The position numbers and the translations under genes were made by a program. The notes beneath the pieces are model-generated. The model ran no database searches. It saw only the letters and a program-made list of their open reading frames with translations, and was not told where the DNA came from. Below are positions 19,614 through 24,285 of a DNA stretch of 24,285 nt, in pieces (the first letter of the stretch is position 1; every line of letters starts with the position of its first letter). The DNA comes from a virus, in IMG/VR virus record IMGVR_UViG_3300023240_000112, positions 1-24,285 of that record, one strand, 5' to 3'.

Positions 19614-20024
19614 TTATAATGCTTTTATCATTTCTTGGTTATAATTATCAGCCTTTATATAGCCAGCCTCTTGATAGGTAGCTATAAGACCATTGTGCTT
19701 TATTAAAGCGTAAGCGTATTTGCTTCCTGAGTTTTTTGCAGAATCAGTAAGAGCCTGAATTAAAACAGACTTCGCTATCTTTCTCCCAGGTTTCTCTCTA
19801 TATTCCTTATTAGATATTATCCAATCCACCCAGCATACTTTTGAGTTTGTTATATATAGAAACCCAGCGCAAACTGGGACGTCTCCATCGTAAACCACTA
19901 AACCACCTTTACCATCATCTGGCAAAAAATCTTTAGCAGGAGCTTCCCACTTCCAATCGTTCCACCATTTTACTAAAATGTTCTCGTAATCCCCTTTCTG
20001 TAAGGGTCTAATAGTTAAATCCAT
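19614..20024 (-). CDS. GNAT-type N-acyltransferase-like protein (136 aa)
   Basis: The start is set at ATG 20024; a TTG nine bases upstream (20033) is in frame but is a weak choice, since a TATCTTTG box overlaps that region. The order fits a GNAT fold: LTIRPLQKGDYENIL at the start, LVVYDGDVPVCAGFLYI as strands 2-4, VDWIISNKEYREKPGRKIA as the strand 4 to helix 3 turn that binds acetyl-CoA, and NGLIATYQEAGYIKADNYNQE at the end. Similar small GNAT-like proteins occur among virion genes in other Bacteroidota phages. Its substrate is unknown; modification of a virion or host protein is the likely role given the operon. Confidence 0.7.
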   Translation of the reverse strand: MDLTIRPLQKGDYENILVKWWNDWKWEAPAKDFLPDDGKGGLVVYDGDVPVCAGFLYITNSKVCWVDWIISNKEYREKPGRKIAKSVLIQALTDSAKNSGSKYAYALIKHNGLIATYQEAGYIKADNYNQEMIKAL

Positions 20025-20030
20025 ATTAAG

Positions 20031-20038
20031 CAAAGATA
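20031..20038 (-). promoter_or_regulatory. Bacteroidota-type -7 box (TATCTTTG) ahead of the GNAT gene
   Basis: On the minus strand TATCTTTG fits TAnnTTTG exactly and ends 6 bases before the ATG at 20024, much like the spacing at 9005-9020. No clear -33 TTTG is present. If used, it would allow the GNAT and ejection-protein genes to be transcribed separately from the genes upstream. Confidence 0.4.
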
Positions 20039-20044
20039 CTAAAT

Positions 20045-20845
20045 TTAAGGATTACTTTTCATTATATCAGACTCAACTGCAAAAAGCTCAGTAGCATTAG
20101 TGTCATCATTTGTTATTGTGAACTTACAGTAATGACCAAGAACACCATGTGACTCAGCTACTGCATCCTTAATAAACATTATGTAGGGGTCTTGTATAGA
20201 TATTGATACAGCACCAGATATACTTGCGTCTATTGTTACTCTGTTTATACCATTAGGTAAGTCAACCTCAATGTTAGTTACCTTTCCAGCGAGCTGAGGT
20301 ACTGTATAAGGCGGTGTTGAAAAGTAAGCTATATCACCAACGCTAAGTATAGAGCCAATACTAACCAGTGGACTAATTGAGAAGTTTATCACCATAGCAC
20401 TTATTGCTCCTGTTACTGATGCGGCTTTACCTATACCATTAACTGAGCGTAATGCATACTCTCCTAACTCAGAAGGTGTTGTTCCTGCATTTCTTATGTA
20501 TGCAAACCAAGACCCCTCCTTTTTCTCGAACCACTCATTCTCAATATATCCTGATGTTTGTATATCTGTAATTAAAGTTGCGTCCCAAGATGAGTCTGAC
20601 TCTAAGTTTATTGTCTTAAACAATTTATTTTGTAATGGCGAATCATTAAATACACTTGTTATTTGTGAAGAGTACTGCTGTCCGTAGTAGTTATTCCTAG
20701 TCTCATTTGTATTGTGTCTATATAAATTACCACCCTTAAAAGTGTAGAAGTAGTTATTCATACCAATCATCCAATCTGGGTAAAATGAAAAAAAAGACGG
20801 CCAGCCTTGGGCTGACTCACTATAGCTTAGTGTATAATTTGGCAT
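20045..20845 (-). CDS. Phage structural/tail protein of unknown detailed role (266 aa)
   Basis: It opens YTLSYSESAQGWPSFFSFYP, then DWMIGMNNYFYTFKGGNLYR and HNTNETRNNYYG, a conserved opening I recognise from structural proteins of Bacteroidota and other marine phages. Residues 55-110 continue with FNDSPLQNKLFKTINLE and ENEWFEKKEGSWFAYIR; 120-260 are beta-rich and may form a receptor-like or stacking domain. No catalytic motif is visible. It is separated from the glycosyltransferase genes by 42 bases with its own promoter-like box, and from the GNAT gene by a short gap. Likely a tail or fibre-attachment component. Confidence 0.65.
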   Translation of the reverse strand: MPNYTLSYSESAQGWPSFFSFYPDWMIGMNNYFYTFKGGNLYRHNTNETRNNYYGQQYSSQITSVFNDSPLQNKLFKTINLESDSSWDATLITDIQTSGYIENEWFEKKEGSWFAYIRNAGTTPSELGEYALRSVNGIGKAASVTGAISAMVINFSISPLVSIGSILSVGDIAYFSTPPYTVPQLAGKVTNIEVDLPNGINRVTIDASISGAVSISIQDPYIMFIKDAVAESHGVLGHYCKFTITNDDTNATELFAVESDIMKSNP

Positions 20846-20887: not shown

Positions 20888-21547
20888 TTAGTATGTTTTG
20901 CCGGGTATCTGCTCTTGAGGACACTCGTGTTTTAATCCTATTGTATTATTAATTAGTATTTTCTTATACTCATTAATTGCAGTAGGAAATAAAATCTGGT
21001 CTTGAACGTGCTTATATTTGTCAACTGCTCTGTTCATTTTATTTGTAATATCAACAAAGTCTTTATGTCTTGTATTATAAAGTATTAATCCTCCATAAAA
21101 AAGCTGTATGTCACTGTCCCTGTAGTCGTGTATGTTTGCCCTTATGTGTATTATGTCAGACAAATATCTATCATAAGCCATTGAGTCAAAGAACTCCCTA
21201 TATATACTCTTTGGATTTATAAAAGATAAAAAAGCATTATCTCCTATCTCCTTAATTAAAGGAGGAATATGTATGCTCATTATTTTATATTTGTGGTCTA
21301 TATACAAGACGTGCTCCGTATTAACGTTGCAATATTTAAGAGTCTTTATATATTTAGATTGTCTTGTTGCTTCTTTTAAATTAAAAGTATGCATCTCATT
21401 CATAATAATAACCCCCCACCCTTGCTCCTCGCAATGCTTTTTAAATGAGTCGTCTCTTATTGTAGTAAACACATAAGCATTTTCTACGTCTGTTTTATGA
21501 ACTCTATTAAAGCTACCTGTCACGCAGGTTACAACTGAGACAGCCAT
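20888..21547 (-). CDS. Glycosyltransferase-like protein, TOD1/MUCI70 (DUF616)-like
   Basis: 219 residues. VVTCVTGSFN (5-14) is a typical first strand; ATRQSKYIKTLKY (60-72) resembles the 'nR..K' helix of the DUF616/TOD1-MUCI70 family; HVLYIDHKYKI (79-89) is the strand carrying the acidic motif, here Asp84-His-Lys in place of a clean DxD; FYGGLILYNTR (150-160) and HVQDQILFPTAI (180-191) match the late conserved blocks. Plant members act in cell-wall/pollen glycan metabolism. The start lies inside the preceding glycosyltransferase gene (19-base overlap), so the two are coupled. It probably acts with that enzyme on one acceptor, inferred to be the hydroxylated fibre. Confidence 0.6.
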   Translation of the reverse strand: MAVSVVTCVTGSFNRVHKTDVENAYVFTTIRDDSFKKHCEEQGWGVIIMNEMHTFNLKEATRQSKYIKTLKYCNVNTEHVLYIDHKYKIMSIHIPPLIKEIGDNAFLSFINPKSIYREFFDSMAYDRYLSDIIHIRANIHDYRDSDIQLFYGGLILYNTRHKDFVDITNKMNRAVDKYKHVQDQILFPTAINEYKKILINNTIGLKHECPQEQIPGKTY

Positions 21548-22359
21548 TCTTTCGCTTGATTATAAAATAAATTGTCAGGGAACTTTGATGTATCTACATT
21601 TGGTATTTTATGCTTATTAAATAATGGGTCGCAACTGTAATGGGCGATGTAGTGCTCATCCTTTAGCTCGTTAACATTAGGGTAATAGCAATTTTCTGGA
21701 GTTACCATTTTGATTCTGTGATTATGGCATGAGATATTTAGTCCGTGCATTGCACACCACCAAGAGTGTTGATTTCCTTTTTCTTTTTCAGTAACTAAAC
21801 AAGAGTACTTAATTACGTCGTCTATTATTTTTTTTATAGTTTTTACTCTTCCTATAACATTAAAACCTCCGTTTATGTATGCATTCATGTCGTGCCACAG
21901 ATAATCGTCTATTACTTTTCTGTTTATTCCATCTGTTTTTGAGATGTGCATGTGCCAATCCTCATAGGTATTATCAGCAAATACTAAGTCATAAGGCATT
22001 TTATCATACTCTTTGGGGTATGGTTTTAAGTGAACCAAGTCAGCATCTATTATCTCAACCACCTCATCATCCCCTAAATGCTCTATAATTTGTTTGGCAG
22101 CAGTAAATACATTTATAGGAATATACCACTGCTCAGAGCCTTTAACATATTCATATACCGAGTCAACCATCTTATATGGTAAAGTCATATTCCAATCAAC
22201 GTCACTAATCGGTTTCTCACCGTAATGATTGTATTTAACTATAGGGATAATTGCTTTTTTACTAGCATCTTCTCCGTACACCTTATTGTGCTGGTGCTGA
22301 AAAAATGATATTTGTTTTCTAAATGCTTCTATAGGTACTACACAAGGAATACTTATCAT
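21529..22359 (-). CDS. Glycosyltransferase-like protein with DxD motif (276 aa)
   Basis: A GT-A-type layout is visible: VVEIIDADLVHLKPYP (100-115) with Asp105-x-Asp107 for metal/nucleotide-sugar binding, DLVFADN (124-130), YINGGFNVIG (161-170), QHSWWCAMHGLNI (197-209) and a late EHYIAHYSCDPLFNKHKI (235-252) where His240 could be the third metal ligand. There is no signal peptide or membrane helix, so it works in the cytoplasm during virion assembly. ATG 22359 overlaps the hydroxylase stop (ATGA) and its end overlaps the second glycosyltransferase. The late His-Tyr and Trp-Trp blocks give some resemblance to hydroxyproline O-glycosyltransferases of plants, but that is an impression, not a demonstrated match. 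Confidence 0.65.
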   Translation of the reverse strand: MISIPCVVPIEAFRKQISFFQHQHNKVYGEDASKKAIIPIVKYNHYGEKPISDVDWNMTLPYKMVDSVYEYVKGSEQWYIPINVFTAAKQIIEHLGDDEVVEIIDADLVHLKPYPKEYDKMPYDLVFADNTYEDWHMHISKTDGINRKVIDDYLWHDMNAYINGGFNVIGRVKTIKKIIDDVIKYSCLVTEKEKGNQHSWWCAMHGLNISCHNHRIKMVTPENCYYPNVNELKDEHYIAHYSCDPLFNKHKIPNVDTSKFPDNLFYNQAKEWLSQL

Positions 22360-23528
22360 ACCAATTTATAATGTACAAAAAAGTTTCTAAAATACTCACC
22401 TCCAAAAGGCTCTTGCCTTCCATGCTCACATATAGCTGACTCGTATAATATTATATCACCAACCTCTGCATACACTTTATGCCAATTACCGTCATGGTCT
22501 TGAATATCTAAAGGCCAATCATCAGCAAACTCTTTGTGCTGACATCCACATCTTAGGTCTTTATCTACTATTATAATTGAAGATATATGATGAGTCTCTA
22601 CCCTATCAACGTGGTTTATAAGCGTAGCCCCTTTTGTGTACGACCTTATACCATAAATAAAGCTAGGCTCTATTGAAACGCCACAGAACTCTTCGTGTAA
22701 TGGCTGTAACTCTTTATGTATAGTTGCTCTAATACTTGGCAAATGCTCAAATGAAAGTATATCACTTCCACCTCCAATAATTACATTCTCCTTGTTCTCA
22801 AACTTCTCCTCTGTTTTTTTGTCCTTTAAAATATTATAAGCATCTTGTATAAGACCCCAAGCGACATCGGGACACTTAACAACTTTAAATCCTTTCTCTG
22901 TTAGCTTTGGTATCTGAGACTTATCTGTATATATTTTCTTTTTGTTTTTATACTTATACGCATCTTCAGCTCCATTCCAATCATTCTCTCTCCACCATGA
23001 GGTGATGATATATTTTTTACCTGAGTCTATTGATTGACCTTCGTGTAAGGTTTTCTCTTGACCTATACCATCTATAGTGTTTTGCCAAATAACAGCTTTA
23101 CCCCTTTTTGGTTTTACTTTTAAATCCATATTAGGAAAATTAGTTCCACCACCTTCAAAGTCATCATTAAGGTAAATCATTAACGTAAATGTCCTATTGC
23201 CAGACTGCAGACAATGTTTGTCATAAGCGCTGCCACTAAAATAATCATTATGAGGTTTAAAAAATTGTCCTTGTTCATAAAGTTGTCCTTGAAGTCCCTC
23301 TCCTTTTGATAATTGTTGGCCTAAGTGTATGGCTATTTTATTATGAACTCTAGATACTAACTCATTATTAGAATCTAAATTACAAGTACTTGAGGTTCTT
23401 GTTTCCGAGACAGTGCTTATATCAGTACCTCCCTCAACCACAGAGGAACGTGTGTGATTAGCATCAATAATTGTAACTAATTCGTTACATTCCTCTTCGC
23501 TTAAAAAGCTTTCTATTTCAGTTATCAT
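22356..23528 (-). CDS. Two-domain 2OG-Fe(II) oxygenase, prolyl 4-hydroxylase-like
   Basis: 390 residues holding two oxygenase domains. Domain 1 (1-182) is a close fit to prolyl 4-hydroxylases: ETRTSSTCNL (42-51), YEQGQFFKPHNDYF (84-97) with His93-x-Asp95, FEGGGTNFPNMDLKVKP (124-140), GKAVIWQN (143-150), TLHEGQ (His162) and KKYIITSWWR with Lys171/172 for 2-oxoglutarate. Domain 2 (about 215-390) repeats the pattern more loosely: INHVDR (His306-x-Asp308), GDIILYESA (357-365), CEHGRQEPF (His369) and EYFRNFF (Arg381). Both iron triads look intact. The enzyme would hydroxylate prolyl residues using Fe(II), O2 and 2-oxoglutarate. It lies just after the Pro-Val-rich fibre gene and is coupled to two glycosyltransferases, which makes the fibre the likely substrate. 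Confidence 0.85.
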   Translation of the reverse strand: MITEIESFLSEEECNELVTIIDANHTRSSVVEGGTDISTVSETRTSSTCNLDSNNELVSRVHNKIAIHLGQQLSKGEGLQGQLYEQGQFFKPHNDYFSGSAYDKHCLQSGNRTFTLMIYLNDDFEGGGTNFPNMDLKVKPKRGKAVIWQNTIDGIGQEKTLHEGQSIDSGKKYIITSWWRENDWNGAEDAYKYKNKKKIYTDKSQIPKLTEKGFKVVKCPDVAWGLIQDAYNILKDKKTEEKFENKENVIIGGGSDILSFEHLPSIRATIHKELQPLHEEFCGVSIEPSFIYGIRSYTKGATLINHVDRVETHHISSIIIVDKDLRCGCQHKEFADDWPLDIQDHDGNWHKVYAEVGDIILYESAICEHGRQEPFGGEYFRNFFVHYKLV

Positions 23529-23570
23529 TTGATTTTAATTTAATATAAAGATAATAAATTAATCTTAAAA

Positions 23571-23592
23571 TCCACATATTGCTACTCTAATA
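23571..23592 (-). repeat. Decayed copy of the fibre module C-terminus
   Basis: Within the 89-base gap between hydroxylase and fibre genes, 23571-23583 (TCCACATATTGCT) repeats 23957-23969 exactly and 23580-23592 (TGCTACTCTAATA) repeats 23993-24005 exactly. The piece therefore equals 23957-24005 of the fibre gene with 27 internal bases missing, with TGCT at the join. On the minus strand one frame still reads SIRVAICG, compared with YIRVAAGG...AICG in the fibre module. It looks like the tail of a former module duplicate. Confidence 0.6.
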
Positions 23593-23617
23593 CTTGTGCC
23601 ATTATTTTATTTAAGTG

Positions 23618-24285
23618 TTAACAATAGTCTTTATCTATTACTACTCCTGAACTATTAATTTGTATTGTTGATAAATCACCACCTACAAAATACCAATCAC
23701 TTCCTCCATTAAATGTTGTTGTACAAGTTCCGGTTGTATAAATCGTATCTCCAATTTCGGGATATGTTGACAAACCATTATGTCTTCTTCTTGAAGCAGA
23801 TGTTCCATTACTACAAGATGCTGCGCTTGAGCCTGAACCTCCGGTTTCTGTATAAAATTGAGTACATAAAGCGGGGCTTGGTGTTGGAGCCGGTGTAGGC
23901 ACTGGCACTGGAACTGGCACAGGCACTGGCACTGGAACTGGTGTAGGCGTAGGAGTTCCACATATTGCTTCTTCAATAACTTCTCCACCTGCTGCTACTC
24001 TAATATAAAAATCAGTTGTCATTCTATAGTACCCTGCTGCTAATGCGTTTAATCCACTTGCATCACTATAAACATTGTCTCCTGCTATTGGTAAGGCATT
24101 TGCTCCATTATGGTAATAAGTATTTGGTATACTTTCAGTACATACATCACTAAAATTACTTGTATTACTACTTGGAAAAGCAGAAAAAGCAGGTGGGCTT
24201 GGCACTGGAACAGGCACTGGAACAGGAACAGGAACTGGAACAGGAACAGGCACAGGCACTGGAACAGGCACAGGCACAGGCACAG
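23618..24285 (-). CDS. C-terminal part of a modular fibre-like protein with (Pro-Val)n tracts (5' end outside window)
   Basis: About 222 residues are visible; the frame stays open through the window edge, inside a Pro-Val tract, so the true start lies beyond it. From the edge inward: (PV) about 14 units, PSPPAF; a module of about 75 residues from DVC to AIC with YYHNGANALPIAGDNVYSD and GYYR; a second tract TPTPTPVPVPV...PTPAPTPSPA; and a second module from LC to DKDYC with RRRHNGLSTYPEIGDTIY. Both modules share HNG-x5-P-x2-GD-x2-Y and end with a G-V-x-x-(D/E) strand and a terminal Cys, so they are homologous repeats. Such Cys-ended modules occur in surface and tail-fibre proteins of flavobacterial phages. 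The Pro-rich linkers should be extended, polyproline-II-like rods. Receptor binding is inferred. Confidence 0.7.
   Translation of the reverse strand, partial: VPVPVPVPVPVPVPVPVPVPVPVPVPVPSPPAFSAFPSSNTSNFSDVCTESIPNTYYHNGANALPIAGDNVYSDASGLNALAAGYYRMTTDFYIRVAAGGEVIEEAICGTPTPTPVPVPVPVPVPVPVPTPAPTPSPALCTQFYTETGGSGSSAASCSNGTSASRRRHNGLSTYPEIGDTIYTTGTCTTTFNGGSDWYFVGGDLSTIQINSSGVVIDKDYC
23873..23953 (-). repeat. Second Pro-Val/Pro-Thr codon tract in the fibre gene
   Basis: An 81-base tract with a 6-base period that encodes alternating prolines with Val, Thr, Ala and Ser between the two fibre modules. Its hexamers vary at synonymous positions (CCT/CCA and GTG/GTT). Pro is at every second residue, a repeat pattern suited to proline hydroxylation. 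Confidence 0.85.
24191..24285 (-). repeat. First Pro-Val codon tract, running off the window end
   Basis: At least 95 bases of a 6-base period repeat encoding about 14 Pro-Val units followed by Pro-Ser-Pro-Pro. Because each unit is two codons, gain or loss of units changes rod length without shifting the frame. The tract continues past the window, so its full length is unknown; the repeat may also be where an assembly stopped. Confidence 0.85.

Follow-up and report, generated by a model that had tools for sequence, protein, structure and literature searches.

The 24,285-nt viral contig analysed here (IMG/VR record IMGVR_UViG_3300023240_000112, hereafter the window) carries on its minus strand a gene for a tail protein with proline-rich tracts, followed by the genes of a two-domain prolyl-4-hydroxylase-like enzyme (P4H) and of two putative glycosyltransferases (GTs), GTA and GTB. 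Our reading, to which we assign a probability of roughly 0.7, is that these genes form a phage-encoded, probably cytosolic cassette for the modification of a tail protein, in which the prolines of the tracts would be hydroxylated and then glycosylated. Beside the genes themselves and their domain families, this reading is built on the observation that each of the two oxygenase domains keeps its iron-binding residues, and on a near-obligate linkage of the P4H with Pro-X tracts. The features are the following (all on the minus strand):

23618..24285, minus: Pro-tract tail/fibre protein, C-terminal part (~222 amino acids, aa), frame open to the contig end; matches phrog_21885 (5e-17)
~24188..24285, minus: Pro tract 1, (VP)14 then SPPA, running off the contig (from translation and codons)
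23870..23956, minus: Pro tract 2, TPTPTPVPVPVPVPVPVPVPTPAPTPSPA (from translation and codons)
22356-23528, minus: P4H, 390 aa, two domains (Pfam, profile and conserved residues)
22974..23528, minus: P4H domain 1 (residues 1-185), predicted prolyl-4-hydroxylase domain
22356..22931, minus: P4H domain 2 (residues 200-390), second 2-oxoglutarate (2OG)-Fe(II) oxygenase domain; invariant triad, phrog_2954 (3e-17)
21529..22359, minus: GTA, 276 aa, predicted GT-A-fold glycosyltransferase with a DxD motif (D105/D107)
20888..21547, minus: GTB, 219 aa, second predicted GT-A-fold glycosyltransferase-like protein, Y82-x-D84-H85-K86 conserved in the alignment
20045..20845, minus: muzzle-like tail protein (PF25729 crAss_MUZ_C, 5e-22)

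The order on this strand is Pro-tract protein, P4H, GTA, GTB, muzzle-like protein, acetyltransferase-like protein and gp14-like protein. The sequence-only reading had described a fibre-like gene with two Pro-Val tracts, followed on the same strand by the hydroxylase and two GTs, and all its coordinates and tracts check out, as do the overlaps that it noted among the three enzyme genes (ATGA at 22356-22359 between P4H and GTA, and 19 nt at 21529-21547 between GTA and GTB). The Pro-tract gene has no start inside the contig, and its N-terminus lies beyond the window end; a full-length homologue of 480 aa (contig L004, 8117-9559) begins MATQGTYYFDTGSF. The second tract has the composition TPTPTP(VP)7TPAPTPSPA. 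Codon usage in the tracts is mixed (CCT/CCA for Pro, GTG/GTT for Val), thus they are not perfect DNA microsatellites, and the other genes of the region have only 1-4 Pro in their densest 24-aa window.

We then evaluated how often these genes occur together. Scans of viral contigs identified 98 distinct contigs with this two-domain P4H, forming 46 clusters at 90% identity. A Pro tract was defined as at least 9 Pro in 24 aa, and a contig was considered informative when at least 1 kb was shown upstream of the P4H. A Pro-tract gene was present at most three genes upstream of the P4H in 75 of the 76 informative contigs, and in 72/76 the tract lay in the very next upstream gene; the single contig with no tract within three genes (L010) has, farther upstream at its start, the short Pro-rich sequence PIPTPAPTAP. 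The opposite pattern, with the enzymes mostly in phages without Pro-repeat fibres, had been named in the sequence-only reading as evidence that would speak against it, and it was looked for and not seen. Downstream, a GT or sugar-modifying gene was found within 5 kb at 101 of 104 P4H loci (a count in which a few contigs are entered twice), and the genes there were of the GT32, GTA/hydroxyproline O-arabinosyltransferase (HPAT)-like, O-FucT, GTB, PF11397 or carbamoyltransferase type.

No X-Pro repeats were found near other phage 2OG oxygenases (26 loci, 22-32% identity), hence the link to the tracts is specific to the two-domain P4H class. X-Pro repeats were also absent from five of the six cultured-phage regions first checked, and the sixth, of S-CAM1, has a charged Asp-Pro-rich stretch with 9 Pro that is not an X-Pro repeat. 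A reverse scan of viral contigs for (CCNGTN)6 was uninformative, the matches listed being mostly short antisense or wrong-frame open reading frames, with no further P4H among them.

The survey of co-occurrence that had been proposed along with the sequence-only reading was run by sampling phages through the muzzle-like gene as a neutral anchor. Tracts were present in 18/18 phages with the P4H vs 3/52 phages without it; the remaining 49 of the 52 had neither tracts nor GTs (0/49), and GTs were found in all three phages that have tracts and lack the P4H (3/3). These three are L112 (5296-8810), L125 (5477-8991) and L119 (8696-9967), incomplete contigs whose Pro tracts are Thr-rich or weaker and which encode a PF11397 GT. 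The complete relative MW202828 shares the gene order, and its homologous fibre gene has no tracts; P4H and GTs are both absent from it. The figures of 18/18 and 3/52 do not represent many independent events, because the tree of the anchor protein shows mostly one clade; for this reason, Fisher's exact p = 6e-14 was not used as evidence. Furthermore, the contigs L009 and L011 and their relatives encode tail tape-measure proteins and are of siphovirus type. With the podovirus types they have in common only the fibre tip (C-terminal domain, 66-68%), the P4H (77%) and the GT genes, thus the module travels together.

The label “fibre” for the Pro-tract gene is a reasonable one, derived from its position: it is flanked by the muzzle-like gene and, as seen in relatives, by the gene of a long tail protein. 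As a description of the substrate it is too narrow, since the long tail and muzzle-like proteins of relatives also bear tracts; in some relatives (L016, L018 and L020), these lie in an N-terminal extension of the muzzle-like protein. Through the gene at 20845-20045, the tail genes of the window have relatives among Cellulophaga, Flavobacterium, Tenacibaculum and Maribacter podoviruses.

Regarding the P4H, Pfam places 2OG-FeII_Oxy_3 (PF13640) at residues 80-180 (3.8e-16) and, below threshold, 2OG-FeII_Oxy_4 at residues 295-322. In domain 1 the Fe(II) triad H93, D95 and H162 and the 2OG lysine K172 are invariant among 15 homologues. The profile of these homologues matched the sequences of solved P4Hs (B. 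anthracis, Chlamydomonas, PBCV-1 and human) with E-values of 1e-33 to 1e-21 (8e-34 for Bacillus anthracis, 2e-23 for Chlamydomonas and 1e-21 for PBCV-1), and the homology spans the whole catalytic domain. The R-T-S, G-E-x-L-Q and N/Q-R motifs align with those of the Chlamydomonas P4H, which include residues that bind a Pro-Ser peptide there. By sequence, domain 1 is a real P4H-type domain, with prolyl hydroxylation as its predicted activity. In domain 2, H306, D308, H369 and R371 are invariant, but the basic residue expected to anchor 2OG is less evident, R381 being replaced by N or D in part of the family; this domain is 34% identical over 194 aa to gene 114 of cyanophage S-SCSM1. The families phrog_2954, phrog_3531, phrog_2297 and phrog_274, which match the 2OG oxygenase domains at 22356-23528, bear the names “ferrochelatase” or “DNA endonuclease”, which we judged to be mis-annotations.

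Searching the window GTA and GTB sequences directly against Pfam, PHROG and PDB gave nothing useful, and their folds and families were reached through family-wide scans and AlphaFold2 models. Both are predicted to adopt a GT-A fold, in agreement with the earlier description of two glycosyltransferase-like proteins. The GTA model, of medium quality (pLDDT 76), matched GT6/GT8 enzymes in Foldseek (E 1e-6), and its DxD (D105, D107) is invariant in 26 family members. Of these, 13 matched the HPAT family of plants (PF23452, best 4e-8), and in whole-record searches four exceeded the Pfam cut-off of 23.9 bits (L028 with 30.2, L045 with 31, L102 with 32.5 and L123 with 24.1 bits). Since family members pass this cut-off, and one of them (L028) is 50% identical to the window GTA over 275 aa, we call GTA a diverged HPAT relative, not itself classed as an HPAT, and its activity is a predicted one. 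For GTB (pLDDT 88.5), Foldseek matched XXYLT1 (xyloside xylosyltransferase), UGGT and COLGALT1 at E 3e-6 to 5e-5. With tblastn, neither GTA nor GTB nor the fibre fragment had a match in cultured phages, and the HPAT-like members had none in phages or plasmids.

A PF11397 (N-acetylglucosamine, GlcNAc) gene is absent from the window according to Pfam and occurs in other cassettes, where 15 of 34 third-gene members belong to this family, the Skp1 hydroxyproline-GlcNAc-transferase type. More generally, the later GTs are swapped among relatives (GT32, PF11397, O-FucT, carbamoyltransferase and GDP-sugar enzymes), and therefore the glycan probably varies between phages.

In the mechanism that we propose, domain 1, and perhaps also domain 2, would act on freshly synthesised tail protein and hydroxylate prolines of its X-Pro tracts, in the cytosol and before or during tail assembly. 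GTA would then place the first sugar on hydroxyproline, and GTB would extend or decorate it. The tracts may in this way become glycosylated polyproline-II rods between the globular domains of the fibre, similar to plant arabinogalactan/extensin glycomodules. Stiffening, protease resistance, or changed contacts with receptors or defences are possible roles.

Two known pathways resemble this scheme. The first is the plant and green-algal P4H and HPAT pathway for extensins and arabinogalactan proteins: the phage P4H domain aligns with the Chlamydomonas P4H, a phage GT is related to HPAT (PF23452), and the tracts are substrate-like X-Pro sequences with X = T, V, S or A. The phage version differs in being encoded beside its likely substrate, in the fusion of a second oxygenase domain, in showing no sign of a secretory pathway and in a strongly diverged GTA. 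The second is the Skp1 pathway of Dictyostelium, in which a cytosolic P4H is likewise followed by a hydroxyproline GT, and many of the related phage cassettes encode PF11397 proteins; in Dictyostelium, however, a single proline of a soluble regulator is modified, as opposed to long tracts in a phage tail protein, and the window lacks the PF11397 gene. The chlorovirus PBCV-1 also encodes a P4H, matching phage domain 1 at the E-value given above, although this is a single-domain enzyme of an algal virus, and we know of no dedicated GT partner for it. In addition, in two Bacteroidota genome contigs (L173, 3-5809, and L174, 7956-13840), the gene of a two-domain P4H precedes that of a large protein (1,500 aa) that contains O-FucT and PF11397 domains; these genes could possibly represent a bacterial hydroxyproline glycosylation system, or the source of the phage one.

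Among 50,697 cultured-phage records, only cyanophage S-SCSM1 has a relative of the cassette O-FucT. It adjoins gene 114, the best match to P4H domain 2, and long Pro-X tracts are present in two proteins annotated as virion proteins; no such tracts were found in eight other phages compared with it, two of which gave single isolated pattern matches. In the record (MK867354.2), the tracts PRPRPNPRP... and PTPRPSPTP lie at 28463-28788 and 172919-172992, and the split oxygenase/O-FucT set lies at 102203-104620. Unlike in the window, the oxygenase domains are encoded separately, at a distance from the genes with tracts, and the tracts are R/Q/N-rich; this phage carries 24 2OG oxygenases, and metabolic roles have been proposed for them (PMC9602691). 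As an independent case, S-SCSM1 is suggestive only. Another cultured phage, the jumbo Xanthomonas phage XacN1, has a PF11397 transferase and carbamoyltransferase pair (L362, 7995-11712) and, away from this pair, PTPTPT-type patterns at 212631-212845 of its record; no PF13640 oxygenase was found in it.

The composition of the tracts bears on which residue would carry the sugar. Across 307 unique tracts, Thr makes up 44% of the non-Pro residues, Val 19%, Ser 15% and Ala 14%, together 92%. Charge is nearly absent: in ~4,240 residues, Arg and Glu occur once each and Lys not at all. The glycomodule of arabinogalactan proteins is X-Pro with X = A, S, T or V, and the tracts consist of such repeated X-Pro units, as in arabinogalactan/extensin-type glycomodules; a neutral linker would look partly similar. 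Thr and Ser make up 59% of the non-Pro residues, which would also suit an alternative in which the GTs O-glycosylate Thr/Ser in a mucin-like manner, the P4H merely rigidifies the polyproline helix or acts elsewhere, and hydroxyproline is not the sugar acceptor. The three phages with tracts and GTs and no detectable 2OG oxygenase fit this alternative, all the more as the tracts of L112 and L125 are Thr-rich, and so does XacN1, with its PTPTP-type patterns and PF11397 relative. Conversely, the core of the window tract is pure Pro-Val, with no hydroxyl residue, thus an O-glycan there would need hydroxyproline; L007 has Pro-Gln tracts, and both have the P4H and GTs. Considering also that the GTA family is related to the hydroxyproline-specific HPAT, we regard this explanation as unlikely, if the best placed of the rivals.

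A slightly less likely explanation is that the enzymes hitch-hike in an exchangeable receptor-binding locus and modify surface glycans or proteins of the host. Tail-fibre loci are exchange hot spots, and the authors of the S-SCSM1 study assigned its fucosyltransferases to the cell wall and its oxygenases to metabolism (PMC9602691). Against this, GTs were found in none of the 49 tract-less phages with homologous tail genes, the enzyme families are of protein-hydroxyproline types, and the tracts are diverse in sequence and constrained in composition. Lastly, hypermodification of phage DNA, in which a base is hydroxylated and then glycosylated, was rejected as highly improbable: some such pathways do pair a 2OG oxygenase with a GT, but domain 1 matches protein P4Hs and not Tet/JBP, the genes sit in a tail operon, and the GT to which GTA is related acts on hydroxyproline in proteins.

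Several observations weigh against the hydroxylation and glycosylation of tract prolines. On the anchor-protein tree, tract presence changes once and the P4H four times, and no 2OG oxygenase was detected in the three incomplete contigs that have tracts and GTs but no P4H, so that GTs or PF11397 enzymes may also use Thr/Ser. The HPAT matches in the GTA family are modest (21-32 bits), the window GTA itself has no PF23452 match at E 0.05, and its model is the medium-quality one mentioned above. The number of oxygenases in S-SCSM1 and the composition of its tracts weaken that case. According to PMC7019647, the PBCV-1 P4H acts in vitro on peptides that contain Pro (a result cited there from Eriksson et al. 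1999), and hydroxyproline was not detected in purified PBCV-1 virions; a viral P4H therefore need not leave hydroxyproline in virions. Finally, the support is purely computational, and it is from this that we infer hydroxyproline, the identity of the sugar and the function. Even so, the comparative evidence has moved the sequence-only reading from a guess to an interpretation well supported by inference.

Apart from the cassette, the acetyltransferase-like gene of the window (19614-20033, minus strand) has a homologue in MW202828 named N-terminal acetyltransferase complex subunit. Many relatives (57 P4H loci), as well as MW202828, have this gene next to the muzzle gene, whether the cassette is present or not.

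The existence of a prolyl 4-hydroxylase in a virus has been on record since 1999, to our knowledge with no viral role assigned to it, and the 2OG oxygenases of cyanophages tend to be interpreted as metabolic. Our literature search, which paired phage P4H with glycosyltransferase or hydroxyproline, brought up no paper describing such a system, in line with what had been supposed at the outset. S-SCSM1 is a cultured phage with virion proteomics already at hand for a first test. On a broader scale, we see even odds that a plant-like module for hydroxyproline O-glycosylation, mobile by horizontal transfer, is present in aquatic phages; composed of a fused tandem P4H, an HPAT-related or PF11397 transferase and interchangeable later GTs, it would build arabinogalactan/extensin-like glycoprotein rods on the phages' own tails, the glycan being varied by GT swaps, possibly to evade or change host recognition. 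If our reading is true, one class of viral 2OG oxygenases would gain a concrete substrate, the phage's own tail proteins. The hydroxyproline-glycoprotein pathway of plants and algae would have a counterpart in a bacterial virus, one whose enzyme and substrate genes are clustered and which is therefore easy to reconstitute. This would also reveal a new route for phages to vary surface glycans, and would bear on the evolutionary source of HPAT-type enzymes.

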